This document shows, one piece after another, positions 45,972-64,000 of a stretch of 64,000 nt of DNA. Under the pieces are notes generated by a model. That model saw only the letters and a program-made list of their open reading frames with translations, was not told the DNA's origin and made no database searches. This stretch comes from Polyangiaceae bacterium. GTDB lineage: Bacteria; Myxococcota_A; Polyangia; Polyangiales; Polyangiaceae. The stretch spans positions 62,001-126,000 of the forward strand of contig JANXOF010000037.1 in the NCBI GenBank assembly GCA_025353725.1. The letters are read 5' to 3'. The translations under genes were made by a program, and so were the position numbers. Every line of letters begins with the position of its first letter. The stretch's first letter is position 1.

Positions 45972-46919
45972 TTAAGGGGTAGCTTGAATCGCAATAATCG
46001 TTACCTGAGCGGGGCGAACCAAAACCGTGAACGTTCCGAGGCGCTTGCCGATGGACTCCACGCGCGCTTCAATCGTCACCAGGTTCGTCGGAACATTGAA
46101 AAAGCCGGCTTCCCCTCTCGCCTTGGTTTCGCGCAACGTGCTCGTGGGCGTTCCCGTGTCGTCGTTGTAAAACGAGACAGTCTTACGATCCCGAACGGAA
46201 AGTGTCGCAGAAACCCCGGACGCGGGATTGCCCTCACAGTCGACAGCCCCGAACAGAACGTGGCCAAGCTGAGGCTCGGGTTTGGTTTCCAGAACGGACC
46301 CAACCAAGTCTAGTTCGGGTGCCGTTAGGACAGGAAAAGATTGGTCATCCGTCGCAACTTCATCGGGCAAACTAGCCTTCGTAAGCGTGCCCGGGTAGAT
46401 GAGAGTTCCGAGCAAACTCAAGCCGCCCCCGCCTCCGTCTGGGGTCAAGGGGGCTACTTCATAGTAGCCTGCGAAGAACTTAGGTACGTTTTGATTCGCG
46501 TAACCTGACTCGTCGGTCGTCGTTGTGGTTAAGGGGGCCGAGCAGGAAATGTCTCGCGTGTTGCAAGCCTTGACGACCACGCCTGAAAGTCCCGTTCTGG
46601 AACTGAACCCTGAAAGTCGATAGCGACTTAGCGTCGGCTCCGCCGAATTTTCGGGCTCAGTTTTCACGCTGCCTAAACAACTCCACTTTGGGTCGAGCGC
46701 TGGCGCGTCCGCGGTTGACCCGCCATCTGTGACGACGCTGGGTGGGGCGCCGCAAAGATTCGCGCTGCACACGCTTGTGGGGAACCCTCGGTCGACACAG
46801 TCCCGGTCCGTGCGGCACTGAACGACATTCGAGTCGATAATAATGCTGCACGCAGCGAGTGTGGTGAGGGCCACGAATGAGAAATGTGCCTTACTTAATC
46901 TATATTGAGACGTTTTCAT
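45972..46919 (-). CDS. Lipoprotein with carboxypeptidase-regulatory-like repeats
   Basis: This 315-residue lipoprotein has a signal FVALTTLAACSIIID with a lipobox Cys and a Cys-rich segment (VVQCRTDRDCVDRGFPTSVCSANLCG) of a type frequent in myxobacterial surface proteins. Two beta-sandwich-like segments follow, with a carboxypeptidase-regulatory pattern (LSGVVVKACNTRDISC through TDESGYANQNVPKFFAGYYEV, and FGAVDCEGNPASGVSATLSV through GEAGFFNVPTNLVTIEARV). It starts in an ATGA overlap with the TPR-PEGA gene stop, so it is the last gene of the frameshifted kinase operon. It may be expressed poorly if coupling to the broken gene matters. Confidence 0.7.
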   Translation of the reverse strand: MKTSQYRLSKAHFSFVALTTLAACSIIIDSNVVQCRTDRDCVDRGFPTSVCSANLCGAPPSVVTDGGSTADAPALDPKWSCLGSVKTEPENSAEPTLSRYRLSGFSSRTGLSGVVVKACNTRDISCSAPLTTTTTDESGYANQNVPKFFAGYYEVAPLTPDGGGGGLSLLGTLIYPGTLTKASLPDEVATDDQSFPVLTAPELDLVGSVLETKPEPQLGHVLFGAVDCEGNPASGVSATLSVRDRKTVSFYNDDTGTPTSTLRETKARGEAGFFNVPTNLVTIEARVESIGKRLGTFTVLVRPAQVTIIAIQATP

Positions 46920-47924
46920 CTAAAGTGACGCACCGTTTCCCGTCGGTAAAGTTCGCCATGCGTGTTTTTTGTAGGCTCACGTGTCGACGGCTGTGTCGAT
47001 GTAAAATACAGTACAATTGAAACAATTGTAGAAGCGATGGCAACACTCCCCACGATATCCGTCACCGTGGTGAGTGTTTTCACTCGGCCGCGCGAGGAAT
47101 CCATTTCCGCTGCGGAAATCCCGGACTGCTGAGCCGCGCGGTCGAGCGAGTACTTTGCATCGAGGCTCAGGAAACCAAGTACGGCGGTTGCTGTGGCAAG
47201 CGCACCCGTGCCCACGAGGGATAAAACGAAGGGCCTTCTTGATCGCGTCTCCGGTTCTCGCACGACGCGCGGGTTCGCTGCCTGCGTTGGAGTAAGGACC
47301 GCCTTTGGTTCCGCGCTCACGCTTAGAGGCTTTCCGACGTCAGCTTCGACAAGATCGAGCGCGATTTCGATGTCGTCACCGCTCGCGATGTCGACGGTTC
47401 TCGATGAAGGCGCAAGTGGTGGGAGGGTGGCCGTAAATTTATGTCTGCCTGCGCCAATGCTGAGCTCATAAATCGGGCTCTTGCCGACACTGATATCGTC
47501 AACAGTGATTTCAGCGCCCTCTCTGTTCACGAGAATGCGAACGCGCGCGACGAGCGCGGTCAGTCGGGCAACTTCGAGATCAACCTCTTTCTTGCGAAGA
47601 GCTGGAATGGCATTCCCTCCTTCGCTCAGGTAGCGCGCGAAAGCTTTTAGTGCCCCGGCGTAGTCTTGAACTTCCAAAGACGCTTGCGCGATATTGTATT
47701 GTATTGTATTGGATTCGGAAGTTTGGCGCTAATTCATAAGCCTTGTTAAACTCGATGAGAGCTGCTCGAAAGTCGGCTTCTTTAAAGAGTATTACGGCCC
47801 GATTGAAGTGGCTTCGCCCGTCATCAACCGTGGTGCTCGCTTGCGGTGCGGCATGCGCCTTCGACTGGACAAAAACCGAGCTCAGGATGACGAAAGTAAA
47901 TGCGACGGAGCGAGCTCTATTCAT
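46916..47924 (-). pseudogene. Frameshifted TPR-PEGA protein gene
   Basis: Two ORFs form one gene. The N-terminal piece (47924 to 47580) has a signal peptide (VAFTFVILSSVFVQSKAHA) and TPR HFNRAVILFKEADFRAALIEFNKAYELAPNFRIQYN. The C-terminal piece (47677 to 46916) continues VQDYAGALKAFARYLSEGGNAIPALRKKEVD, then a PEGA-like segment (RILVNREGAEITVDDISVGKSPI) and a membrane helix (VLSLVGTGALATATAVLGFL). The break is at four CAATA units (plus strand TATTG, 47692-47711). Two units would give PNFRIQYNIAQASLEVQDY, the expected TPR sequence; five would also be in frame. Total length is 1009 bases, one over a multiple of three. It is either phase-variable or inactivated. It overlaps the kinase stop and the lipoprotein start. 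Confidence 0.8.
47692..47711 (-). repeat. CAATA x4 microsatellite causing a frameshift
   Basis: Four perfect tandem TATTG units on the plus strand (CAATA on the coding strand) sit in the TPR-PEGA coding region. Two or five copies keep the frame; four copies break it. Such pentanucleotide tracts are prone to slipped-strand changes. Confidence 0.85.
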
Positions 47925-49562
47925 TTGTAAGGGTCTGCATCGTCAATGCTACGATGGAGCTTTTGCGGACGTGTGGAAATGGGTTTCGGCAAGGCGTCAT
48001 CGCGTCGTTCCGGCGTTGTTAGGGGAGACAAAGTCAGTGTTACGCGGCTGTCATCATATTCGCTTATATCGCGCTCCAAAGGACGAAATCCGGTAGCTTC
48101 TGCGTGAAGTCGATGCGGGCGCGCAAGCAGTGTGCCGTCATACGGATTTGAGACAGGATTTCCGTCCAGCCTTAGGAGAGCTCCGCTCGGATTGGTTGTG
48201 ATTCGCACGTTAAATGATTGCGAACCTATCGAGGAACTTGCTGATTTCGTGAAGGGTGTCGGGGACAGCGTCTCAGGTGGCGAAACAGTCGCGTTATTCT
48301 GTATACGCGGTAGTAGGTTGACGGGCTCGGTGTGGGTCATCGTCGACGCTTGACCGTTGCCCCATCGATATATCCCTACCGCCGCTCCGAGTAAGGCTAC
48401 TGCCGCTAGGCTCGAGGGGAGCGCACGAGAGGTAGCCTTCGTGGTTACGCTGACTTCTCGTGCGAGCGGAAGCGGTACCTCCGTGGATGCCGTGGAGCTT
48501 ATCGTAGTACTCCGTATTCCAATCCGCGGCAGGGACGCCTGCGATGCCCTTGCGTTGGCTCCGACAATCAGCTTTACCTTGGAGCGCTCTTCCTTGAAGT
48601 GCTCATCGAGCAAAGCCGCGACGTGGCGTGATTCGCAGTTGCCTACGTGCTCAAGGTAAGCGTCGATGGCGTCGCGCATGGCGCCTGCGGTCGCGAAGCG
48701 GTCCGAAGCGTCGAGCGCCATCGCTTTTTCGCATATAGCGACGACCGGATCCGGAGCGTCCGGTACCACGTCGCGAATTCGGCGTTCGTTTCCGTGAATG
48801 CGTCGCGTCACGACCGCGATGTCGTCTGCGCCCTTTTCGACAAGACGAGTTCGCGCGAGCAGCTCCCACAAGATGACGCCAACCGCGAACAGGTCCGCTC
48901 GCCGGTCTATCGGCTTCCCCATGAGCTGTTCGGGAGCCATATAGGCAATCTTGCCCTTAATAACGCCTTTCTGCGTTTTTTCGCTAGAAAGTCCTCCCTT
49001 TGCAATCCCAAAATCTAGGATTTTTGAATGACCTAAGTTAGGTAGTAAAAATATTTTGGGGGCTCACGTCGCGATGGACGAGATTCATCGCTTGGCCGTC
49101 GTAGTCTGCCAGCTCGTGAGCGTAGTGAAGTCCGGCCAGCGCTTCGGCAAGCACTCGGAGGCCGATCGGCAGTGGAACCGCATGGCGCCCGACCCGACGG
49201 AGCACGCCGCTCAACGGCTGTCCGTCGAGGTATTCCATGACGATGTAGATCTTTCCGTCGTGCTCTTCGACTTCGTACGTGTGAATCACGTTCGGGTGGT
49301 TGAGGCGCGCCGCGATGCGTGCCTCGCTCAGGAACATGGCTCGAAAGTCTTGATCTTCGGCGAGCTCGGCCCGTAGCGATTTGAGTACGAGAAGTTTCTG
49401 GAAGCCGCCCGCACGATTGGATATGGCGAGATGAACGTGGGCCATTCCGCCTTCGCCGAGGTTCGCAACGAGCTGGTAATCGCCTACCGTTCGGTTGTCA
49501 GTGCTCAACGGATGTTCCCCCTGCCGGAAAGACGGAAGATGTCCATGGGATGCAGGGCGCAT
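47921..49562 (-). pseudogene. Frameshifted membrane Ser/Thr protein kinase gene
   Basis: Two ORFs form one Hanks-type kinase. The N-terminal piece (49562 to 49038) carries LGEGGMAHVHLA, the catalytic Lys in LLVLKSL and VHRDVSPQNIFTT, then stops at TAA. Just past the break, another frame reads NLGHSKILDFGIAKGGLSSEKTQ, then IAYMAPEQLMGKPIDRRADLF, and continues through a membrane segment (LPSSLAAVALLGAAVGIYRW) to a PEGA-like domain (VRITTNPSGALLRLDGNPV). The lesion lies near 49025-49032, where one extra base (or a two-base loss) separates ACTACC from AACTTAGGT. The total length of 1642 bases is one over a multiple of three. A TTG at 49508 with GGGGA upstream is an alternative start. Without repair the kinase lacks its DFG motif. 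Confidence 0.8.
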
Positions 49563-51089: not shown

Positions 51090-51266
51090 ATGCCCTTGTC
51101 GAATCCTCGAAAAGTCATCGCTTACTCCGCAATACTCAAGGAGCTCCGTGCGGAGCCTCGATATTCGTGGGACGACTTATCCATCGATGTGCAAGTCGCA
51201 GTTCGGCGCGCGAAGGCGACGTTGTCGGAGCGCTCAGACACCTTCGGCCTGAAGCTTCTGAAGTAG
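51090..51266 (+). CDS. Possible small protein (58 residues)
   Basis: The last part of a long track ORF (50685-51266) differs sharply in composition from its Arg-rich upstream part. From the ATG at 51090 it encodes a balanced, helix-like peptide: MPLSNPRKVIAYSAILKELR, AEPRYSWDDLSIDVQVAVRR and AKATLSERSDTFGLKLLK. It ends 33 bases inside the 3' end of the convergent giant TPR gene. No family is recognised. It could be a genuine small gene or a chance ORF. Confidence 0.4.
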   Translation: MPLSNPRKVIAYSAILKELRAEPRYSWDDLSIDVQVAVRRAKATLSERSDTFGLKLLK

Positions 51267-54200
51267 GTCGCGAGCGCTTTGGAGGGTGGGGTCATCATCG
51301 ATGGCTCGCTTGAGCATCATCATGGCTCGCTTTCCGTCGCCTTGCTGGCGCGCGATTTCGCCAAGATGCTGGTAGGCCAGGGCCTTCGGGAGCGGCGCAG
51401 GCTCTTTGAGCATCGTGATCACGCGAAGCGCGCGTTGCGCCAGGTCAAGGCTCTGTAGCTCAATCGCGCGTTGTGCGAGTTCAGACGCAACGCCTCCGCT
51501 TTGAGGGTCCATGTCGAGAGCGGTCGTTAGGTGTTGCAGCTCAGCGTGATTGTCGCCTTGCACTTCGGCAATGCGGGCGAGCCGATGGTACAGCGCCGAG
51601 AGCTCTCTCGCGCGTCGGCCCTTGAACGTTCCGATGGTGCGCTGGAGCAAGTCGAGGGCTTCGTCGAACCTACCCGACGCCACATAAGCGTCCGACAAAA
51701 GCGCGCTGCAATCAAGGTCTCCCGATCGCAGCGCGTGAGCTTCTTCCAGTGGCGCAATGGCTGCGTTCAGGGCAAGGCCCGGGGGCGCTGAAGGATCCTG
51801 CGCGTACTCCAGGAAGAGCTGCCCAGCTCGCATCAGTCCCTCGAACCGTGGGGCGATGTCACCCACCGAGGCACGCGCCTCTTCGAGAACCAGTTCGGCC
51901 AACTCCCTCGTAGCGCCTAGCGCCTCATAGAGCCAAGCAAGTCGCTGGCGAAGCGGCGCGTCGTTTGGAGCCGCCATGCGTGCTCGCTCGAGCCCTCCGC
52001 GCGCGTCCGCAAGGCGGCCCGCTTTTTCGCATGTTTCTGCCAGTTTTAGGGCCGCGGATACAATTCCTACCTCATCTTCTAGGCCCACGAGTCGACGGTA
52101 CGTTGCACTTGCGGCGTCCCACCTACCTTCCAGTTCATCGAGGTGCGCTACGGCTCGAAGCGTCGCCTTGTCTTTACTGTCTGCTTTGAGCAGCTCGGTG
52201 AGCACGTCGCGCGCTTGGTCGATCTCGCCTAGCTCAAGCCTGAGCTGCGCCATGCGTAGACGATAGGTCCGCCAGCCGTTCGAGTCTCCGCGCCCCGCGG
52301 CCTGCATAGCGAGTGTCCCAAGGTGCTCGGCAAGAGGCGCACGGAGGGAGACGAGGCCGCACTCGATGGCTTCGTCGAAGTCTTCGAGCGCCCCTTCCCC
52401 CTGGCCCAGGCGAACGCGCAACCCCGCGCGCCGACTTAGGAGCTCTGCTCGCCTGGCGTAGTCAGCGACCGTATCGAGTCCGTCTTGTCTTTCGATAGCG
52501 CCCGAAAGTTCCGTGACCGCCGCCGCAAGCTCGCCGGCCGCGATCAGCATTTCGACGAGCTCGTGAAAGAGTTCCTGATTCCCCGGAGCCGCGTCGCGCG
52601 CCTCACGCAAACTCTTTGCTCCTTGCTCGGGATCCGAGAGTTCGTCGCGGTAAAGGCGCGCCGCTTCGCGCAAGCGTTCACTCATCGCTTCGGGTTCATG
52701 CCTCGAACGCGCGTCGGTAACGAAGAGCTCGGCGAGCTTGTCGTATTCGAGCTGTTCGCGATAGGCCGCCTCGAGCTTCGAGCAAAGCTCACGACTCTCC
52801 GGTGCTGCTTTGAACCCCATTTCGAGCGCTCGCAGCGCGCCTTCGCTATCGCCTCCTGAATGGCGCACTGAGGCGAGCGCGAGCGCAAGCTGCTCCGCCA
52901 CCGCGCCGTGCTCGATGGCGAGGCGGCGTTCCATAACGTCCGCCCTTTGCTCGCTCTCGCCGCCCTGCTCGTGCAACGCTTCAAGCGCTATGAGTACGTC
53001 TTTCGCACGCGGATCCCAGTCGAGTGCCGCCGAGTACACCAAGCGTGCCTGGACGCTGTCACGGCCCTCTAGAAGTTTTCCCAGCCGCCACGAGAGCGAG
53101 CTCACCGCGTCTGCATCTTGACGATCTTTGGCGGCGTCGAGCTGTTTGCCGAGCAGCTCCACGAGGTCTTCTTCACGACCGCTACGCTCCAGGATAGCGA
53201 CCAGGAGGATAGCGCCATCGACCTGCGCCGGATCTTCGTCGACGATCTCACGAAGAGCGACAGCGGCGTCGTCGTCGGAGAGCTTCAGCTTCTCCATTCC
53301 GACGCGCACGCGCTCAAGACGAAGCTTGGAACGCTCACCGCTATCGTCCACATAGCCGACGACCTCCTGAAGGAGGGCGCCTAGCTTCTCGAAGTCGTCG
53401 GTGCGCCGGTAAACGTCAAGGAGCAACTCCCACGCGTCGCGATCGACGGGGTCGAGTCCGTGAAGCTCCTCGTAAACACTTCCTGCGAGTCGCAGATCGC
53501 TGAGCGGGCCCGACGCGAGACCTGCGACGTCGTAGAGAAGGCGGCGCGCGTCCGCCGGCTCTGAAAGGTCAGCCGCTTCGCGTTTGAGCACGACGGCCTC
53601 GCGCACGTTGCCCGCCTCCTCGCAGAGACCCGCGAGCTTCGCGAGGGCCCAAACGCGCCCTTCCTTGTCGTCTTGGATACCTTCGAGGTACCTACGCAAA
53701 AGGGACTCTGTAAGGTCTCGATCGGAAAGTTCGACCGAGGCTATCTCGACCGCCTCGCGCATGGGTGCCGTGCTCGACGTGGGCAGCGCCCATCGTCTCA
53801 CGAGGGCATCGACGAGCTCGCGTGGGCGACCCGACTCTCGGGCGAGACGTTCGAGAATGTCCACGACGCGTTCGCTCGCGGGGTGCGCTTCCGCCGCGAC
53901 GCGCATGAGTGGCTGCGCGCGGTCACTATCGGCATCCGCGGCAAACGCCTGCTCGAACGCGTTGCATGCAGCGTCGACATCGTTTCCTCGAAAAAGAAGC
54001 TGGACGAGGCGATACAGAACATCGCTCGACGGACTGCTGTCCTCGGTGTCAAGCGCAACCCGCACTCCAAGAACACGCGCCTGAGCCCCGTAATCACCCA
54101 GCCGCTCGTAGGCCAGGTCGAGCGCGGCGAGCACGCTGCGGTCACGGCTGTCGGCTGCGGCGGCCCTTTCGTAGAGTCTCGCCGCTTCGCGGTCGTCCTT

Positions 54201-57200
54201 GCCATCGGCTTCCGCGAACGCTCCGAGGCGAACGAACAGCGCGCACGCCCGCGCCGGATGTGTCTTGAGCTCGGCTTCGGCGAGGGCCCGAACGCGCTCG
54301 TTGTAGCCCTCGGACTTGCCGAGGACCTTCCCGAGCCGAAGGGCGGCGTCGTGGGCAGCGCCACACGCAGAGTCGACCTCGATGGCCTGCACGTGCATCT
54401 CAAAAGCGTCGTCGGCTCGCCCGAGTCGCTCCTCGTACAAGTGGCCGAGTTCGTTGTAGAGCGCCGCAGCATCGGGCGGCGTACCACCGCGCATAATGCG
54501 CGCTTCGAGCGCGCGGACCAGGCTGACGAAGTCCCCCGACGTACGGAGCGAAGCCTCGAGGCGACGACCTTCGAGAGCGCTCTCGGAAGCGATCTCGAAC
54601 GCCGACTCGAGCACCTCCTTCGCGCGCTCAGGCTCGCCTTGAAGCGTGGCGACTTTGCTCAGCTCGAACATCACTTCTGACCGCGAAATCGGAGCGTCTT
54701 CGCCGAGGGGTTCGTGGCGGCGGAGCACCGTCAGCAGCGCGCGATAGGATCGCTCGGCGCGATCGAGCTGCCCATCGTCGCGGGCGAGCTCCGCGAGGGT
54801 GTGTAAGATCTCCGGATTCGCAGGATCGATGCGCGTAGCGGCGTCGAGCTCCACGAGCGCTTGGGCGCGCTCCCCAACTCTCAGGTCGAGTCGCGCGAGG
54901 TGGTAGTGCACGGGGGCACGCTCCTTCGGGCGTCGACCGCCGAACGCCTCGACCAGGGCGCGCAAGAGAGCGCGGGCATCATCGAAACGGTCAGCCGCAC
55001 CGAAAGCGTCGGCGAGCAGGAGCTTGATGGTGTTGTCCTCCGGAGCGAGGTCTGTGGCTTGCTCAAGAAGTGGAATCGCACGTTCGGGCTGCCCCGTGCG
55101 CGTGCGGTGAAGATCTGCCGCTTCGCGGAGTCGTCCGAAACGTGTGGCTTTGTCGACGGCGTACCGAGCCCCATCGGTGAGAAGCTCCGCAAGCGGACCC
55201 CAGGCTTCGGAAGCGTTGTAAGCCGAGGCGAGGCGCATGCGCACTCGGTCGCCCTCGGGATAGAGGGCGACCTCCGCTTCCAGTGTTGCTTGCGCCGCGG
55301 CGCCCAGGCCGGAGGCGAGCTGCGCATCCGCGAGTCTGAGCGCCACAGCCTCGCGAGAGGGGCCAAGAGTTCGTTCTCGCAGCTTATCGAGGTAGCTTGC
55401 CGCGCCCGGGTAGTCGCCGGCGGCGGTCGCTAGGCGTGCGAGCGAATCTAACGCAGCAGGCCTCTCCTCGAGGTCGATGACGCGACGGAGATGTCGCGTC
55501 GCGGCTTGAGAGCTACCCAGCATTACCTCCGCGATTTCTGCCGCGCGCTGGTGGAGGTCTGCCGCAGCGGTCGGCTCGAAAGCGTTCTCTGCGAGGGTTG
55601 CCTGCTGCGCAAGCAGCTCCTCGAGTTGGCTATACTGCTCGTCGCGCGTGAACAATGCCTCAAGCCGCGCCCGCGTGGCTTCGTTTCGCGGAGACTCTTC
55701 CAGGTTCTGCAAAAGAACCGTGGCCGCTTTTGCGGCGTCTCCGAGTTCGTCTTCGAGGTGTGCGACCTCCAAGCGAAGCGCAAGGCGCTCTTCTTGCGTC
55801 CGAGCGGTTTCGACGAGTCCGCGTTTCAGCGCGCGCAGCTCGGTTTTTTGCCCCGCGCTAAGGTAAAGGCGCACGAGGGATTCGATAGCCCGCGTGTCTT
55901 GTGGATCTTCGGCGATGAGCTGGAGGTAGATCTCCTTGGCACGCTCCTCCGCGTTGAGCCGTTCGAGAGCAAAGCGTGCCGCATCGTGACGAAGCGACCG
56001 CGATTTTTCGCGCGACCAAGGCAACGAAGCCGTTTCGACGAGGAGCGAGATGACCTTGTCATCGTCGCCGTCGCTTTCGTAGAGGTCTTTGAGTTCCGTC
56101 GCGGCTCGTTCGACATAGGTCTCTGGGGCGGCGGGAGTTCCTGACGAGACCGTAAACGCGAGCTTCGCGCCGCCGTCGTGGTCCTCGCCAGGAACGTCAC
56201 GCGTCGGGGAGCCTGTCCAACGCTCCACGGCGAGACGCCTGAGTTTCTCTAGAATTGCTTTAGAGAGGGCACGATCTCCCACGCTGCCCCGTGCAACATC
56301 CGCCGCTTCGCGCAGCAGATCGAGGTCTCCGCCCGTAGCGTCGGAGAGGCGGACGAGGCTGTCCACGAGCGGGCGTCCGTTCGCTCGACGTTGGAGCTTT
56401 GTCAGCTCCGCGAGGATCCCCGAGTTCGCGCTGTCGTACGTGAGAGCTCGCACGTACGCCGCTTCGGCGGAGTCCGGATCTCCTCTTCTTTCACGGTGCC
56501 AGACGGCGAGCGACGCTTCCATATCTCGGGCAAGCGGTGGCTCGAGACCGCCGCCGTCTCGTAAAAGCTCGGTCAAACATGACGTGAGAGCATCCCAGTC
56601 GGAAGACGTCGTGGCAGCCTTGGTTGCAGCTTCGAGCAGCTCGGGCTCGAGCCTCGCGCATGCCCGCGTACTCTCGACCAGGGTGACAGCTGCTGCGTCC
56701 CACCGTGCGGTGCGACCGGCCACGCGAAGAACGGCGGCCGCTGCTACGAGGTCGGTCGGGTCATCGTGTGCAGTATGCACGTAGGCGTCGAGCGCCGTTT
56801 CGGGTTCTTCGAGTCGTGTCTCAAGGACTTCGCCCAAGCGGAAACGCCGATCCCTTGACCACGATGCGGAGGGCGCCTCCGGGCTCGACACACACTCGAG
56901 AAGTGCATCCGCGAGCGAACGGAAGCTGCGGGTCGCTTCGGCGAGGCGGAACAGCTCGTCCAGGGTTCCTACGAGCGCGCACGACGGGTCGAGCATGAAC
57001 GCACGCCGCACGAATGCAAAGGCCGCAGGCGCGTCTTGCGCGCGTACTTCCGCCAGAGTTGCCGCCTCGAGCAGAATCGTGATCTCCGCTTCGTGAGTTG
57101 GCGACCCGTTCGTTGCGGCGTTGAGGCGATGCTCGGTGAGATCGAGAACCAGGCGCCAATCGTCCGCCGCTCGGAATGCCAGCAGCAATACGCGTACGAC

Positions 57201-60200
57201 GTCGGCCCGGTGGTCGGCTTGTTCGAGCAGCGCACGAAGACCGGCGCGCGAACCTTCGCTTCGAGCATCGTACCGAAGCGCGGACTCATAGCTCTCGACG
57301 GCTTGCGATGTCGCCGCGAGTTCTGTGCGTTGAATATCCCCAAGATCGCGCAAAAAGGACGCCTTTTCGCGGGCGTTTTCGGTTCTTCGAGCCGCTTGTG
57401 CAAAGAGTTCAGCGAGGTCGCTCCAGCGCCGGGTCGCCCGATAGAGAGCCGCGAGTGCGCGCGTTCCCTCGGCTTCATGCCCGAACGTCGCTTCTACGTC
57501 GACCCAGGCCGTGATGGCTTCTTCAGGGGCCTCGAGCTTCTCGCTGAACAGCGTTGCGATACGAATTCGATCGGCACGCTGCTCGTGGGCTGGACGATCG
57601 AGCTTGTCGCGCTTCGTGAGGACATCAATGAGCGGCTGCCAGCGCTGCGCTTCCTCGAACTGAACGACCAGACCATCGAGCGCTTCGCGATCGTGCGGGG
57701 CGGTCTCAAGGCGACCCTCCCACGCCCAGATCGCGCGCGGATTTTCGTGCAACTCAGTGGCGAGACGCGCGACGGCGCCGAGCACACGAAAGCGCTCTTC
57801 TTGACGTTCTTCGAGGAGCGCGAGTCGCTCTAACACATCGAGGCGATCCGATTTACGCCCGGCGGTTTCGAGCAGCGGCTCAACCTTCCGGCATGCGGCG
57901 AGTTTCGCCTCGCTTCCAGCTTGGGCGGTCGCAAGGATACGAAAGAATATGTCGATTGCGCGGTCTGGGTCTTTGAGCTTGTCGGTCGTGACGACGCCCG
58001 CCTGCATCAGGAGGTCGACCTTCAGTGTGTCCTCGGCGCACGCGTCTGCGGCCGATACGAGGACGTCGGCGAGTCGCTCGAAGCGACCGACGCTTTCGGC
58101 GAGCCGAGCGAGCTCCGTCCGGTGCGCGGCAAACGTGGGCTCGAGAAGCACGAGCTGGATGAAGTGTTCCATCGCGCGTTCGTCGTCGCCGAGATGCGCG
58201 TAAAGAACGGCGATTTGGTGGTGCCTTTGCGTTCGCTCCTCAATAGTTTTGGAGCCCTCGAGTTCGACCTCGAGCGCTCGCGCGAGGTTTTCCTCCATGC
58301 CGGAGGCTTCGTACCGAGCCCTCAAAAGCGCCGCGGCGCGTTGACGAACGAGCCCCGCAGCCTTCGCTTTCGGGGCGTAGGAGTCGCGACGGCCCTCGGC
58401 TGGACGCATCACTTCGGGACGAACTTCGGCGGTGTGCGGAGCCTTCGCGAGTACCCGTTCAAGTAACGCCGTCACGTCTAACGCAGGCATCAAAGGAGGC
58501 GGTAGGCTGCACGGCAGCATCCGCTCCGACGGCAGCGCGAGCGAGCTTGCTCGGACGTTCACGTCCGCGGTTTGGCGTCCGTTCTCACGCTCGTTCGCGT
58601 TCTCATTCTCATTCTGATGCGCGAGAATATCTTCGATCACGATGAGCGCGCTCGATGCGTCGCTCAGCTCGTCGAGCCAGAGGTTTGCCATTCGGGCGCG
58701 TTCGCGCTGCGCTTCGTCGTACGTGAGCTGCGGAAGCCGCTCACCAAGGAGGCCGATGAGTTCGCGATGAAAGCCGTGTCTTTCGTAGAGGCGCTCGAGC
58801 GCGGCTTCGATCCGCGTTGTGCCGGGCTTTAGAGCGAGGAGCTGCTCGAGATAGCCGATTGCCCGTTTGGAGTGATTGGCAAAGTCTTTGGCGATTTGAG
58901 CGGCTTCTTCTAAAAGCTCGAGGCGTCGGGGCGCCTCCGCACGAGCGGCGGTGCGATCGTAGAGGGCAAAAAGGTCATCCCATCGTTCCTGGGCGTCGAA
59001 GATAAGCTTCAGTCGGTCGAATGCCCAATTGTCTAGCGGGTCAATTTCGAGGAGACGCTCGAGAATACCCACGACGCGCACGCTGTCCTCGAGCCACTCT
59101 TCGAAAAAGGCGACCGCGCGCTGACCAAGATCGTTCGCAACGACACCATCGAGCGGGCGGCGCAGCACTTCTTCGTAAAGTGCCGCGACGGAGTCGGGCG
59201 ATGAGAGCTTTCGTGCGAGGGTTTCGGCGCGGTCCCACAACGCGGCGTGGTGTGGAAGTTCCCTGGCAGCGCGGACGACGACGTCGAACGCGTCGGCCGT
59301 GTTGTCGAGGTCCGCGTAAATGTCGAGCAGGCGCTCGTAGTGCCCCAAACGAAAATCGATTCCGGGTTCACCGTGACCGAGCAAGCGACGCAAAATGGCC
59401 GCCCGAGAGACCGGATCGCAGACCGCGTCGAGGCATGTGTCCAAGAGTGCGGCGGCCTCGGTTTTGATGTCCACATCCGACAGCAGGACCGCCGCGAGCT
59501 CGAGGGCTTGCGAATCATCAGGTGAGGCGTCGAGCACACTTGCGAGGTACGGCAAAGCTTCGCGCTCTCGTCCCGCGCAGCCCACCAAGAGTGTCGCAAT
59601 TTGGACGGCGAGCGCCTGGCGTACCTCGCCCTCGCTCGTCGCATGTCGAGTCGTCAGGGCGGTGAGTGCGCCTGCGAGATCGCCCTGCGACAGAGAGAGC
59701 CGCGTGACCGAGCCAAGGGCATCAAGGTCGTCGGCCTCGTTCGCGAGGACATCTTTGTAAAGTTCAAGCGCACGCGTTGGGTTTTTCAGCAAGGTTTCCT
59801 CCAAAGCGGCCCACGAGGTGAGTGCACGCGAGCGATCTGCAGGTCGTGCGTTTTCGACGTGCCATGCCGCGAGCCAGCGAACGTCTGCATTGCGGCCTTC
59901 ACTCGGGGGCATGGCCTCGAGCAGCGAGCGAAGTCCCAACGCCGCAGCGGCGCGGTTTGGCTCGTCGGCGGCGGTCTCAATCACGGTCCGGTAAGCTCTT
60001 GCGGCGTCTGCATGGCTTGCGGGTTGGGTCGCCAGCACACGCGCCATCGCGAGCGTGACTTCCGCCGTCTCGTGGAGGCCCTTTGACGCCGCTGCGATAG
60101 CCAAGGCAAACGCTTCGACGTCGCCCGTACGTCGCGCAAGCGTTTCAAATTCGGCGAGTACCCCGCGATGACAAGGCGCGAGTGCGAAGGCGTTGGCCGC

Positions 60201-63200
60201 GGCAGCGAATGCCCCCGGTAAGTCGTGCGCGTGTTCGGCAAGGAGTCGCGCCTGGCGACGGAAAAGCGACACGCGCTCCGAAGGCTCGCCGGCGACCTCG
60301 AGCAGCACATCGAGGAGCGCTCTCGTGCGTGCGTAGTTCCCCGTGCGCTCATAGAGGTCGACAAGTTGCGCGGTGGCTTCGATATCGCGAGGGTTGCACT
60401 CTCGCACGCGCACAAGGAGCGCGACGAGCGTGGCTTCGTCTCCGCTGCTGCGAGCGATCTCGGCGGCCTGTTTCAAGTGCTCGACGGCTCGGCGGCTGTC
60501 GCCTGATGCGAGATCGAGTGTCGCGATTCGCTCGAGTCCCTGCGATTGTTGCCGAGGGTCCGTCGTGTGGGCGACGCGCCTTTCGAGCACGAGGCGAAGC
60601 AAGTCTACGTCGTTGATGACGATGGCTACGTGTTCGACGAGGTCGAGGTCGCTCGACACGGCCTCGGCGCTATGGAGGAGTGCGCGCGCGTGAAGTCCGG
60701 CCCGCTCATGTTGTCCATGAGCCGACGCTATCTCAGCGATGCGTGCGTGCGACCCGCGAGCCTCTTCCGGCGACGAGGCGATCGGAAGGTGCGCTTCGAG
60801 GATGTCGCAGAGGTCGCTCCAGGCTCCGACTTCCGAGAGGAGCTCGACGAGCGCATCGTAGGCGATTTGATCCGAGGCGTTGTCCCCGAGCGCTTGGCGG
60901 TAGACCCCTAAAGCCGCCTCGAGGTTTCGCAGTTCGTAGCGCTCGATGCTGCCAATGCTGTGAAGAAGCTCGCCACGGCGAGCCGCGTCTGGACCTCGTT
61001 CGAGAGCTGCGCGAAACAGCGCGACGCGCTCTTCGGGGTTACCTGACTCGCGCAGAAGGCCGTCGATGCGCGACAACAAGGAGAGTGAGGATGGCTCGAA
61101 GCTGAGGGCTCGCCGGAGGGCGACAAGCGCCGCTCCTAGGTCGCCCGATGCGGCATGCTCTGAGCCGACTCGCTCGGCAAGTGCGGCAAGTGGGGACGAC
61201 GAGATCGGGTGCTCCCCGAGACCCTTCCCCAAGATCGCTGCGCGTCGTTTGGGGTCGGTGTCGCCCGCGAAGGCGTCAAACCGCTCGAGCCACGGCTGAA
61301 TCGGCTCGTTGCCGGTGACGGCCTCCGCAAGGCCCTTGCCGACGAGGTCGAGCGCTTTGTCGCGCGACGTCGCGAACGACAGGACGGCCGCTTCGTCGAT
61401 GGCGACGAGGCGTTCGCGTAGGTGGGCTGACAGCCTAGCCTTGATATCCAGCACGCGAAGCAGGCCTTGACTGTCCTCATCGCGGCGGTAGGCCGGCTCG
61501 AGCACGAGCGCCGCGGCGAGACGGTGCTCCCCCGCAGAAAGGAGCTTTTCGAGGGCTCCACGACTCGCTCGGTCTGCAGGGTCGGCGTCCAGTGCGCTCT
61601 TGAATGCATCGATGGCCGCGACGTAGTCGCGTGTGCGTGTAAGGTGCACGAGTCCGAGTCTCGAGAGAACCGACGACCGTTCGGTAAGAGGCGCCATTTG
61701 CGCCTCCTGTGAGAGCGCTGCCGCGAGCTCGGGCCATTGACGTTGGAGCTCGAGAAGTGGAATCCATTGGGCGTAGATGTCCCTCGCGGGACCGTAGGTC
61801 TCGACGAGCTGTCGCCACGCTTCGGCCGCGCTCGTGATGTCCTTCGCAAGGTGCGTGAGAACTTCGGCGGCACGGAACGAGAGCTGCCTCGCGAGGGCGC
61901 TGTCACCGCTCTTCGCCGCGAGTCCACGTGCACGCTGCTCAAGCACGAACGAAAGGTCGAGCCAAGACTCTCGTTTCTCATAAAGCGGCTCGAGAGCCTC
62001 GAAAGCGCGCTCGCGCGCGGGGCTATCGACGAGGCGACGCCAAGCGTCGATGGCTCGCTCGATGTCGCCGAGGGGAGTCGTACAGAGCTGTGCGATACGT
62101 TCCGTGGCTTGCTGCTTTTCGCTATCGTCGTTGCTTAACTCTGCGACGCGCGACAAAACCTCGACGAGGTTCTTCGCATCGTTTTCTGCCTCATAAAGGC
62201 TCGTGAGGGCCCGCGACGCCACGAGGATCGCAGCGGCGGCGGAGCCCGTGGCAGTGAGCACGCCAACGAGCGCGGTTCGCGCGCGCTTCGCGTCGCCTCC
62301 CAGGAGCAGCAGCTCGCCCATCTCGGCGTTGATGAGAGACCGCACGCTCGCATCTTTGGCGGCGGTCGAAATCCGCGCAAACGTCCGCGCGACGTCGAGT
62401 GGTCCTTTCAGCGTCGAACCGAGCGCGACGTAGCGACGGCGCAAATCGTCCTCGGTCGGATCAATGCCTAAGGCCTGCTCGAACGCATCCAGTGCACCTT
62501 GGGGATCGTTGAGCTCGTCTTGTTTGAGAATGCCAATTCGCCGCAGGACATCACGACGCCTCGGGCCGCGTGTATTTTCGAGTTCGATGGCGAGGTAGCG
62601 GGCAGCCTCCTCCGTGGTCGGTGCACCCGACGCAAGGGCGGCCGCTGACCGAGCGGCGAGGCCTTTGCTTTCGAGAAGGCGGAGGGCCACACGCCGCGCC
62701 TCTGGGTGGGTCGGGTCGACGTCGAGGAGCGCCTCGACATGAGGCATCGCGCGTTCCGGCTCTTTGAGCTGATTTGCGAACACCTCGACGAGTTTGGCGC
62801 GGATCTGCGCGGTGTCGTCGACGTCTGGGGGAGGGTCAGCGGCGAGCGCTTGCTCGAACATTCGCGCGACGTCACGGTACCGGTTCGCTTTGACGTAGCG
62901 CGCCTCAAGGACGCTCCGCAGGGGCTCGTCCGTAGGGTCTAGTTTGACCAGCTGTTGATAAGTCTCAATCGCCTTGTCTTCGAGATTGGCACGTTCATAG
63001 AGAATGGCCGCTCGCTTGAGGAGAAGGAGTTGGTCTGGCTTATTTCGATGGGTTGCCGTGTAAACGCAGAGATCCGCCAACTTCTTGTTGTCGTCGACGC
63101 GCGTGAGGTGGGCGTCGATTCGCTTGAATGCGCCTGCGTGAGCGGGCCAGGCCGTAAGCGCTCTTTCGAGGTAGGTCGTGGCGCCAAACTCGTCTCCAAG

Positions 63201-63527
63201 GACCTCTCCAAAAAAACCTGCCGCGCGGTAGAAAAGCTCGGCCTGCACCAGAGGCACGAGGGTTTTCAGTCGTCGTCCTTGCGCAACGGATTCGTAAGCG
63301 AACGCGAGTTCCGACACACGGTCGTGGCGGACGGCGGCCTCATGCAACTCCAGCCAAATGCCGTCATCGAGCTGATTTTTGGAGAGCCCGAAAAGCAACG
63401 CATCAAGGATTTCCTCTTCGTTCTCGAGTTTGGTCTCGAACGAAGGAATTCCGTGACGGGATTTGTGAAATGACGGCGGCGACGATGGCATGGGCATCCG
63501 AGCGAGCCGAGAGGGGAGGGAGGCCAA
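51234..63527 (-). CDS. Giant tetratricopeptide-repeat protein (4097 residues)
   Basis: One uninterrupted frame encodes about 450 kDa of TPR-like helical repeats from end to end, with units such as AIETYQQLVKLDPTDEPLRSVL, ALDAFEQALGIDPTEDDLRRRY and RAMMMLKRAIDDDPTLQSARDLL. No signal peptide, membrane helix or catalytic domain is seen, so it is probably a cytoplasmic scaffold. A disordered Asn/Glu linker (NENENANEREN, near residue 1640) divides the repeats. The start may be the ATG at 63527 or one of the following Met codons (MPMPSS). Very large TPR proteins are known in myxobacteria, including the gliding-motility protein AgmK/GltI (about 3800 residues), but orthology cannot be judged here. 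It is divergent from ctaB. Confidence 0.9.
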   Translation of the reverse strand: MASLPSRLARMPMPSSPPSFHKSRHGIPSFETKLENEEEILDALLFGLSKNQLDDGIWLELHEAAVRHDRVSELAFAYESVAQGRRLKTLVPLVQAELFYRAAGFFGEVLGDEFGATTYLERALTAWPAHAGAFKRIDAHLTRVDDNKKLADLCVYTATHRNKPDQLLLLKRAAILYERANLEDKAIETYQQLVKLDPTDEPLRSVLEARYVKANRYRDVARMFEQALAADPPPDVDDTAQIRAKLVEVFANQLKEPERAMPHVEALLDVDPTHPEARRVALRLLESKGLAARSAAALASGAPTTEEAARYLAIELENTRGPRRRDVLRRIGILKQDELNDPQGALDAFEQALGIDPTEDDLRRRYVALGSTLKGPLDVARTFARISTAAKDASVRSLINAEMGELLLLGGDAKRARTALVGVLTATGSAAAAILVASRALTSLYEAENDAKNLVEVLSRVAELSNDDSEKQQATERIAQLCTTPLGDIERAIDAWRRLVDSPARERAFEALEPLYEKRESWLDLSFVLEQRARGLAAKSGDSALARQLSFRAAEVLTHLAKDITSAAEAWRQLVETYGPARDIYAQWIPLLELQRQWPELAAALSQEAQMAPLTERSSVLSRLGLVHLTRTRDYVAAIDAFKSALDADPADRASRGALEKLLSAGEHRLAAALVLEPAYRRDEDSQGLLRVLDIKARLSAHLRERLVAIDEAAVLSFATSRDKALDLVGKGLAEAVTGNEPIQPWLERFDAFAGDTDPKRRAAILGKGLGEHPISSSPLAALAERVGSEHAASGDLGAALVALRRALSFEPSSLSLLSRIDGLLRESGNPEERVALFRAALERGPDAARRGELLHSIGSIERYELRNLEAALGVYRQALGDNASDQIAYDALVELLSEVGAWSDLCDILEAHLPIASSPEEARGSHARIAEIASAHGQHERAGLHARALLHSAEAVSSDLDLVEHVAIVINDVDLLRLVLERRVAHTTDPRQQSQGLERIATLDLASGDSRRAVEHLKQAAEIARSSGDEATLVALLVRVRECNPRDIEATAQLVDLYERTGNYARTRALLDVLLEVAGEPSERVSLFRRQARLLAEHAHDLPGAFAAAANAFALAPCHRGVLAEFETLARRTGDVEAFALAIAAASKGLHETAEVTLAMARVLATQPASHADAARAYRTVIETAADEPNRAAAALGLRSLLEAMPPSEGRNADVRWLAAWHVENARPADRSRALTSWAALEETLLKNPTRALELYKDVLANEADDLDALGSVTRLSLSQGDLAGALTALTTRHATSEGEVRQALAVQIATLLVGCAGREREALPYLASVLDASPDDSQALELAAVLLSDVDIKTEAAALLDTCLDAVCDPVSRAAILRRLLGHGEPGIDFRLGHYERLLDIYADLDNTADAFDVVVRAARELPHHAALWDRAETLARKLSSPDSVAALYEEVLRRPLDGVVANDLGQRAVAFFEEWLEDSVRVVGILERLLEIDPLDNWAFDRLKLIFDAQERWDDLFALYDRTAARAEAPRRLELLEEAAQIAKDFANHSKRAIGYLEQLLALKPGTTRIEAALERLYERHGFHRELIGLLGERLPQLTYDEAQRERARMANLWLDELSDASSALIVIEDILAHQNENENANERENGRQTADVNVRASSLALPSERMLPCSLPPPLMPALDVTALLERVLAKAPHTAEVRPEVMRPAEGRRDSYAPKAKAAGLVRQRAAALLRARYEASGMEENLARALEVELEGSKTIEERTQRHHQIAVLYAHLGDDERAMEHFIQLVLLEPTFAAHRTELARLAESVGRFERLADVLVSAADACAEDTLKVDLLMQAGVVTTDKLKDPDRAIDIFFRILATAQAGSEAKLAACRKVEPLLETAGRKSDRLDVLERLALLEERQEERFRVLGAVARLATELHENPRAIWAWEGRLETAPHDREALDGLVVQFEEAQRWQPLIDVLTKRDKLDRPAHEQRADRIRIATLFSEKLEAPEEAITAWVDVEATFGHEAEGTRALAALYRATRRWSDLAELFAQAARRTENAREKASFLRDLGDIQRTELAATSQAVESYESALRYDARSEGSRAGLRALLEQADHRADVVRVLLLAFRAADDWRLVLDLTEHRLNAATNGSPTHEAEITILLEAATLAEVRAQDAPAAFAFVRRAFMLDPSCALVGTLDELFRLAEATRSFRSLADALLECVSSPEAPSASWSRDRRFRLGEVLETRLEEPETALDAYVHTAHDDPTDLVAAAAVLRVAGRTARWDAAAVTLVESTRACARLEPELLEAATKAATTSSDWDALTSCLTELLRDGGGLEPPLARDMEASLAVWHRERRGDPDSAEAAYVRALTYDSANSGILAELTKLQRRANGRPLVDSLVRLSDATGGDLDLLREAADVARGSVGDRALSKAILEKLRRLAVERWTGSPTRDVPGEDHDGGAKLAFTVSSGTPAAPETYVERAATELKDLYESDGDDDKVISLLVETASLPWSREKSRSLRHDAARFALERLNAEERAKEIYLQLIAEDPQDTRAIESLVRLYLSAGQKTELRALKRGLVETARTQEERLALRLEVAHLEDELGDAAKAATVLLQNLEESPRNEATRARLEALFTRDEQYSQLEELLAQQATLAENAFEPTAAADLHQRAAEIAEVMLGSSQAATRHLRRVIDLEERPAALDSLARLATAAGDYPGAASYLDKLRERTLGPSREAVALRLADAQLASGLGAAAQATLEAEVALYPEGDRVRMRLASAYNASEAWGPLAELLTDGARYAVDKATRFGRLREAADLHRTRTGQPERAIPLLEQATDLAPEDNTIKLLLADAFGAADRFDDARALLRALVEAFGGRRPKERAPVHYHLARLDLRVGERAQALVELDAATRIDPANPEILHTLAELARDDGQLDRAERSYRALLTVLRRHEPLGEDAPISRSEVMFELSKVATLQGEPERAKEVLESAFEIASESALEGRRLEASLRTSGDFVSLVRALEARIMRGGTPPDAAALYNELGHLYEERLGRADDAFEMHVQAIEVDSACGAAHDAALRLGKVLGKSEGYNERVRALAEAELKTHPARACALFVRLGAFAEADGKDDREAARLYERAAAADSRDRSVLAALDLAYERLGDYGAQARVLGVRVALDTEDSSPSSDVLYRLVQLLFRGNDVDAACNAFEQAFAADADSDRAQPLMRVAAEAHPASERVVDILERLARESGRPRELVDALVRRWALPTSSTAPMREAVEIASVELSDRDLTESLLRRYLEGIQDDKEGRVWALAKLAGLCEEAGNVREAVVLKREAADLSEPADARRLLYDVAGLASGPLSDLRLAGSVYEELHGLDPVDRDAWELLLDVYRRTDDFEKLGALLQEVVGYVDDSGERSKLRLERVRVGMEKLKLSDDDAAVALREIVDEDPAQVDGAILLVAILERSGREEDLVELLGKQLDAAKDRQDADAVSSLSWRLGKLLEGRDSVQARLVYSAALDWDPRAKDVLIALEALHEQGGESEQRADVMERRLAIEHGAVAEQLALALASVRHSGGDSEGALRALEMGFKAAPESRELCSKLEAAYREQLEYDKLAELFVTDARSRHEPEAMSERLREAARLYRDELSDPEQGAKSLREARDAAPGNQELFHELVEMLIAAGELAAAVTELSGAIERQDGLDTVADYARRAELLSRRAGLRVRLGQGEGALEDFDEAIECGLVSLRAPLAEHLGTLAMQAAGRGDSNGWRTYRLRMAQLRLELGEIDQARDVLTELLKADSKDKATLRAVAHLDELEGRWDAASATYRRLVGLEDEVGIVSAALKLAETCEKAGRLADARGGLERARMAAPNDAPLRQRLAWLYEALGATRELAELVLEEARASVGDIAPRFEGLMRAGQLFLEYAQDPSAPPGLALNAAIAPLEEAHALRSGDLDCSALLSDAYVASGRFDEALDLLQRTIGTFKGRRARELSALYHRLARIAEVQGDNHAELQHLTTALDMDPQSGGVASELAQRAIELQSLDLAQRALRVITMLKEPAPLPKALAYQHLGEIARQQGDGKRAMMMLKRAIDDDPTLQSARDLLQKLQAEGV
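58579..58614 (-). repeat. Degenerate hexamer repeats in the TPR linker
   Basis: Six consecutive hexamers on the plus strand (CGTTCT, CACGCT, CGTTCG, CGTTCT, CATTCT, CATTCT) encode the Asn-Glu-rich linker of the giant TPR protein on the minus strand. Copy-number change would alter the linker by two residues per unit without a frameshift. Confidence 0.7.
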
Positions 63528-63680: not shown

Positions 63681-64000
63681 ATGGAGAAGTCCGCTTCGAC
63701 GGCTGCCCAAGCTTCGACGGCCGCGCGAGAGGAGCGCGGCTGCCCGGGTACGCCCTCTATTTCTATTTCTATTTCTCTTTCGAGTTCCGGTATCACGAGC
63801 ACGTTGCTCAGGGGGCCCGTTCCCGTTCGCGTTCCCGTTCCCGTTTCCCTGGGCCGCGATCTCGTGGTCCTCGCGAAGCCCCGGATTACGCTTATGGTCG
63901 TGATCACCGCTGCCGGAGGGCTCTTTCTTTCTAGGCGCGTGTCCGATTCGGCGCCGCTTTCGGCGGTTACGGTCGTTTTGACACTGCTCGGCTGCGCGCT
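63681..64000 (+). CDS. ctaB: Heme O synthase (protoheme IX farnesyltransferase), 3' partial
   Basis: This gene is missing from the ORF track because it runs off the window. The frame opens at the ATG 63681 and reaches GRDLVVLAKPRITLMVVIT, then AAGGLFLSRR and a hydrophobic helix (PLSAVTVVLTLLGCA), the classic start of CtaB/CyoE, the UbiA-family enzyme that farnesylates heme B for cytochrome oxidase. The N-terminal extension of about 55 residues is built partly from hexamer repeats: SISISISL and PVPVRVPVPV. A TTG at 63639 is an upstream alternative. The minus-strand ORF 63653-63907 is its shadow. The giant TPR gene is divergent, with 153 bases between that include a run of eight Gs. Confidence 0.85.
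   Translation, partial: MEKSASTAAQASTAAREERGCPGTPSISISISLSSSGITSTLLRGPVPVRVPVPVSLGRDLVVLAKPRITLMVVITAAGGLFLSRRVSDSAPLSAVTVVLTLLGCA
63756..63779 (+). repeat. TCTATT hexamer repeat in the ctaB leader
   Basis: Three perfect TCTATT units and one TCTCTT encode the SISISISL stretch of the CtaB N-terminal extension. The unit is a multiple of three, so copy change would lengthen or shorten the protein in frame. Confidence 0.8.
63816..63845 (+). repeat. CCCGTT hexamer repeat in the ctaB leader
   Basis: Five hexamers (CCCGTT twice, CGCGTT, CCCGTT twice) encode PVPVRVPVPV directly before the conserved CtaB domain. Together with the TCTATT tract, this makes most of the leader repeat-derived. Confidence 0.8.

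Follow-up and report, generated by a model that had tools for sequence, protein, structure and literature searches.

Organization of the operon

Three adjacent genes on the minus strand of the window (the whole 64,000-nucleotide stretch of DNA analyzed here) form an operon. Its predicted products are a Hanks-type membrane kinase that ends in a PEGA-like domain, an exported protein with TPR and PEGA domains, and a lipoprotein-like protein. The following features were identified:

47921-49562, minus strand: Hanks-type Ser/Thr kinase gene with a C-terminal PEGA-like domain, in two frames
49041-49053, minus strand: lesion of the kinase gene (one net extra base), located after HRDVSPQN and ahead of the premature stop at 49038-49040
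46916-47924, minus strand: TPR-PEGA gene, 1009 bp, in two frames (N-terminal part, 47692-47924; C-terminal part, 46916-47691)
47692-47711, minus strand: (CAATA)x4 tract, two native units plus a two-unit (10-bp) frame-breaking expansion
45972-46919, minus strand: third gene of the operon, lipoprotein-like protein of 315 amino acids (aa), apparently intact and overlapping the TPR-PEGA gene by ATGA

The same ATGA overlap is found at both junctions (kinase/TPR-PEGA and TPR-PEGA/lipoprotein-like gene). The TPR-PEGA gene is indeed paired with a Ser/Thr kinase, as the original prediction for this locus had stated. The lipoprotein-like protein has a putative lipobox-like start (LTTLAACS) and no match in Pfam or NCBIfam. 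Elsewhere in the window, positions 51234 to 63527 (minus strand) are occupied by one intact 4,097-aa ORF of tetratricopeptide-like repeats, whose best NCBIfam match, PEP_TPR_lipo, is under its cut-off. Hexanucleotide arrays (TCTATT x4.3 and CCCGTT x5) are located at 63756 to 63845, ~230 to 320 bp upstream of this ORF.

The CAATA tract and the frame of the TPR-PEGA gene

Four CAATA units were predicted to part a TPR ORF from its continuation, and the tract was found at exactly 47692 to 47711, where both the open frame and the coding potential calculated from codon usage change frame. The gene extends from 47924 to 46916, and its 1009 bp are, as had been counted, one base over a multiple of three. 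As assembled, the product stops at 47580 and comprises 114 aa (77 through the end of the tract plus a frameshifted tail). The repeat unit is not a multiple of three and lies within the reading frame, and the number of units sets that frame: 2, 5, and 8 units give a single open frame of 332, 337, and 342 aa, respectively, while 0, 1, 3, 4, 6, and 7 units leave it closed. Restoration by two or five units, expected beforehand, was thus reproduced, with eight as a further open state. In the two-unit register, TPR_2 (29.1 bits; cut-off, 27) and PEGA (22.6 bits; cut-off, 20.8) both score above their curated cut-offs, in agreement with the predicted identity of the protein.

The native CAATA units correspond to the codons CAA TAC AAT A, which are part of the conserved TPR motif QYNIAQ; in the two-unit register, the motif in this genome reads CGA ATC CAA TAC AAT ATC GCG CAA. 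An ortholog in genome G009 (L004/L095) has RIQYNLAQ, encoded by CGC ATC CAG TAC AAC CTC GCG CAG. As half of the tract thus consists of native codons, what is anomalous is the gain of 10 bp on a two-unit repeat present by chance, and a slippage-type expansion of that length is the likely cause of the frame break.

The tract is more than a chance occurrence. Frameshifts and repeats were surveyed in 1.264 Mb of the 6.6-Mb genome, and the CAATA tract was the sole pentanucleotide tract with at least four units in the sequence surveyed; none arose in five order-2 Markov simulations. Three CAATA units (CAATACAATACAATA) have no other occurrence in the whole 6.6-Mb genome.

The exact frame logic (2, 5, and 8 open, the others closed) and the uniqueness of the tract in the 1.264 Mb sampled speak for slipped-strand phase variation, in which the number of units would move between two or five (on) and four (off) and so turn the kinase's partner, TPR-PEGA, on and off. 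A precedent exists in Haemophilus influenzae hsdM, in which a (GACGA)4 tract, also a four-unit pentanucleotide in a coding region with the unit number setting the frame, has high measured rates of phase variation (PMC2651432). Unlike the CAATA tract, however, which is represented by one allele and is accompanied by another lesion in the kinase gene, hsdM has a measured rate and several alleles among strains. A four-unit tract is at or below the usual simple sequence repeat cut-offs and is shorter than the five pentanucleotide units that PhasomeIt requires as a minimum, the threshold applied in a Campylobacter survey (PMC6321876). In addition, the CAATA tract lies within a conserved TPR helix, into which five units would insert five residues, and the one genome available for the species displays no alternative allele.

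A second frameshift in the kinase gene

The kinase gene carries a +1 frameshift that falls after HRDVSPQN and before the DFG motif and that the original prediction had overlooked. Frame one encodes the N-lobe through HRDVSPQN, and frame two encodes the DFG motif, the C-lobe, a linker, and the PEGA-like domain. Pfam matched Pkinase in both parts, and the C-terminal PEGA match was slightly below its cut-off. As assembled, the product (49038 to 49562) has 174 aa and ends past the catalytic loop. The surrounding sequence is homopolymer rich (C5-A4-TA-T5), and the extra base can be placed only to within 49041 to 49053.

The DFG motif of kinases is metal binding. Since the truncated kinase would be without both this motif and the C-lobe, it should be inactive, a prediction based on established kinase biochemistry. 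As the kinase has this separate +1 lesion, returning TPR-PEGA to frame would still leave the module with a truncated kinase.

Homologous loci and the ancestral register

Homologous loci were found by an alignment-based scan of genome contigs. The 55 loci fetched include 14 pairs in which one record was fetched twice, leaving ~41 distinct loci. All 55 cross the TPR site in a single frame and in the two-unit register, and the CAATA repeat is absent at this site from all of them and from the paralogues; a conserved regulatory repeat was therefore rejected. In 47 of the 55 loci, a kinase homologue lies near the TPR-PEGA homologue on the same strand, and for 44 of these 47 a single alignment spans the HRD-DFG region. 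Translated in a single register, each of the two genes aligns to 9 to 10 homologues without a frame break at the lesion sites, which was the outcome of the alignment of the repaired protein that had been suggested as a check. Judged from these sequences, the two-unit register is the ancestral form of the TPR-PEGA gene.

The closest orthologous module (L093, from MAG P-RSF-IL-17) belongs to another genus of Polyangiaceae and has both genes intact, with 50 to 51% identity; no homologue within the family exceeds 52%. Against intact L093, each of the two genes in the window is split over two frames: the kinase aligns with 74% identity over 154 aa and then 43% over 383 aa, and TPR-PEGA with 49% over 83 aa and then 47% over 258 aa. 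In L093 and in the other Polyangiaceae modules (L023/L095, L026/L097, L024/L104, and L025/L106), the kinase (44 to 51% identical to the one described here) and TPR-PEGA (36 to 50%) genes are close together on one strand, as in the window. However, each gene in these relatives is one open frame without a CAATA repeat, and the gene order is variable. Homologues of the lipoprotein are present in L093, L023, L026, L029, and L030, and those in L093, L023, and L026 are located near the other two genes. At another locus of MAG P-RSF-IL-17 (L113), a kinase beside a different TPR-PEGA homologue has an in-frame stop within the aligned segment and is possibly another broken kinase of the same type.

The reversible slipped-strand switch originally proposed is not supported, as the kinase is separately frameshifted and no homologue or paralogue has the repeat at this site, and we consider it improbable. 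A variant in which the CAATA tract does reversibly switch a kinase-linked envelope protein, and in which the lesion in the kinase is either an error of assembly or another off state, appears similarly doubtful. If reads did contain several unit counts, this would be a repeat-driven switch in myxobacterial kinase signaling.

Programmed ribosomal frameshifting could also yield full-length proteins by reading through both genes, each of which is one base over and keeps coding potential on both sides of its lesion. However, all 55 loci (~41 distinct) can be translated across the TPR site without a shift, the kinase junction has no recognizable slippery +1 site, and the sequences at the two lesion sites show no relationship, making this explanation highly improbable.

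Assembly quality and other kinases of the genome

The main rival to decay of the module is a sequencing or assembly error, or a strain mixture in the bin, in which case the extra kinase base and possibly the repeat count would not be present in the real chromosome. The assembly consists of 98 contigs and is 97.6% complete with 3.4% contamination. The kinase lesion falls in sequence rich in homopolymers, where sequencing error is likeliest, and both genes are otherwise intact. On the other hand, a pentamer gain of 10 bp is not a typical single-base error, and the two lesions fall within one operon.

A census of the kinase family yielded 152 Pkinase matches in the genome. Among the matches listed, only the kinase of this module was in a short open frame (175 aa, the next smallest being 315 aa), and ~150 kinase domains elsewhere were in long open frames; all nine other TPR-PEGA matches were unbroken as well, and the 4,097-aa ORF of the window is likewise intact. 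The idea that the genome contains a second, intact copy was set aside, the best other copy being 38% identical.

We relied on this census because the ab initio frameshift detector was unspecific, flagging junctions between genes as well as glycine-rich frames; of 40 simulated insertions it recovered 30, and it missed the kinase lesion. Five strong candidates that it proposed elsewhere were tested by Pfam, and none had both halves in one family, several halves having matched nothing. With no lesions in ~116 kb of kinase domain, the upper 95% bound on the lesion rate is ~0.026/kb, at which two lesions in the 2.65 kb of the module would have a probability of ~0.002, assuming random scatter. Comparable genes elsewhere in the assembly (the kinases listed and the other TPR-PEGA matches) carry fewer lesions than this module. 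What remains of the error explanation, which we regard as unlikely overall, is a patch of locally poor sequence quality.

Probable decay of the module

The probable explanation is that one signaling module has recently decayed and that slippage at a chance repeat contributed one of the two hits. This is more likely than an assembly error or strain mixture, which in turn is more likely than a genuine switch. The two lesions share one operon in an otherwise clean assembly, which argues for recent loss of the module, and such clustering would be expected once constraint is lost. In the course of events that we infer, replication slippage on the native two-unit sequence (CAATACAATA) would have added two units (10 bp) and put TPR-PEGA out of frame, and the kinase would separately have gained one net base after HRDVSPQN, leaving a product of 174 residues that lacks both the DFG motif and the C-lobe. 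Loss of function would follow and would be nearly irreversible. As the genes overlap by ATGA, the early stops probably lower downstream translation too.

Neither gene contains further stops beyond the two lesions, and the catalytic motifs of the kinase are retained, suggesting that the lesions are either of recent origin or artifactual; this otherwise clean state fits only a very recent loss and fits an assembly error equally. The GC3 values of TPR-PEGA and of the C-terminal part of the kinase are 0.56 to 0.59, compared to 0.69 in long ORFs, and those of the paralogous kinase and TPR-PEGA genes are 0.61 to 0.72. Relative-rate tests against L093 gave a significant excess of change on this branch for both genes with one outgroup but not with others.

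As the evidence stands, the locus represents ordinary gene loss, in one lineage, of one module from a large and redundant repertoire of ~150 kinases. The practical lesson is that a second lesion should be looked for in the operon partner before a frame-breaking repeat is named a switch.

Other phase-variable systems and repeats

No useful papers on PEGA kinases in Myxococcota emerged from our literature search. In Myxococcus xanthus, yellow/tan phase variation changes the expression of Ser/Thr kinases (PMC3986340), which resembles the proposed switch in being phase variation that touches Ser/Thr kinases in a myxobacterium. However, the text of that report does not mention repeats or slipped-strand events, and the kinases are regulated genes and not switched by a tract (PMC3986340).

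Two other repeats were observed in the same genome. An ATAG tract of 5.5 copies (L052:6078-6099; G000 contig C13, ~452078-452099) ends at the ATG of a minus-strand gene and thus occupies the ribosome-binding region. The gene encodes a class II glutamine amidotransferase (GATase_4) that starts with Met-Cys, and the tract is a better site for repeat-controlled expression than the CAATA tract. The second repeat (TTTCTCGA x4.1; 8-bp unit) is located at the 5' end of a 380-aa ORF (L074:5371-5403; G000 contig C90, 25371-25403). The likely true start of this ORF, MNPSAF..., is lipoprotein-like and lies directly downstream of the 8-bp tract.
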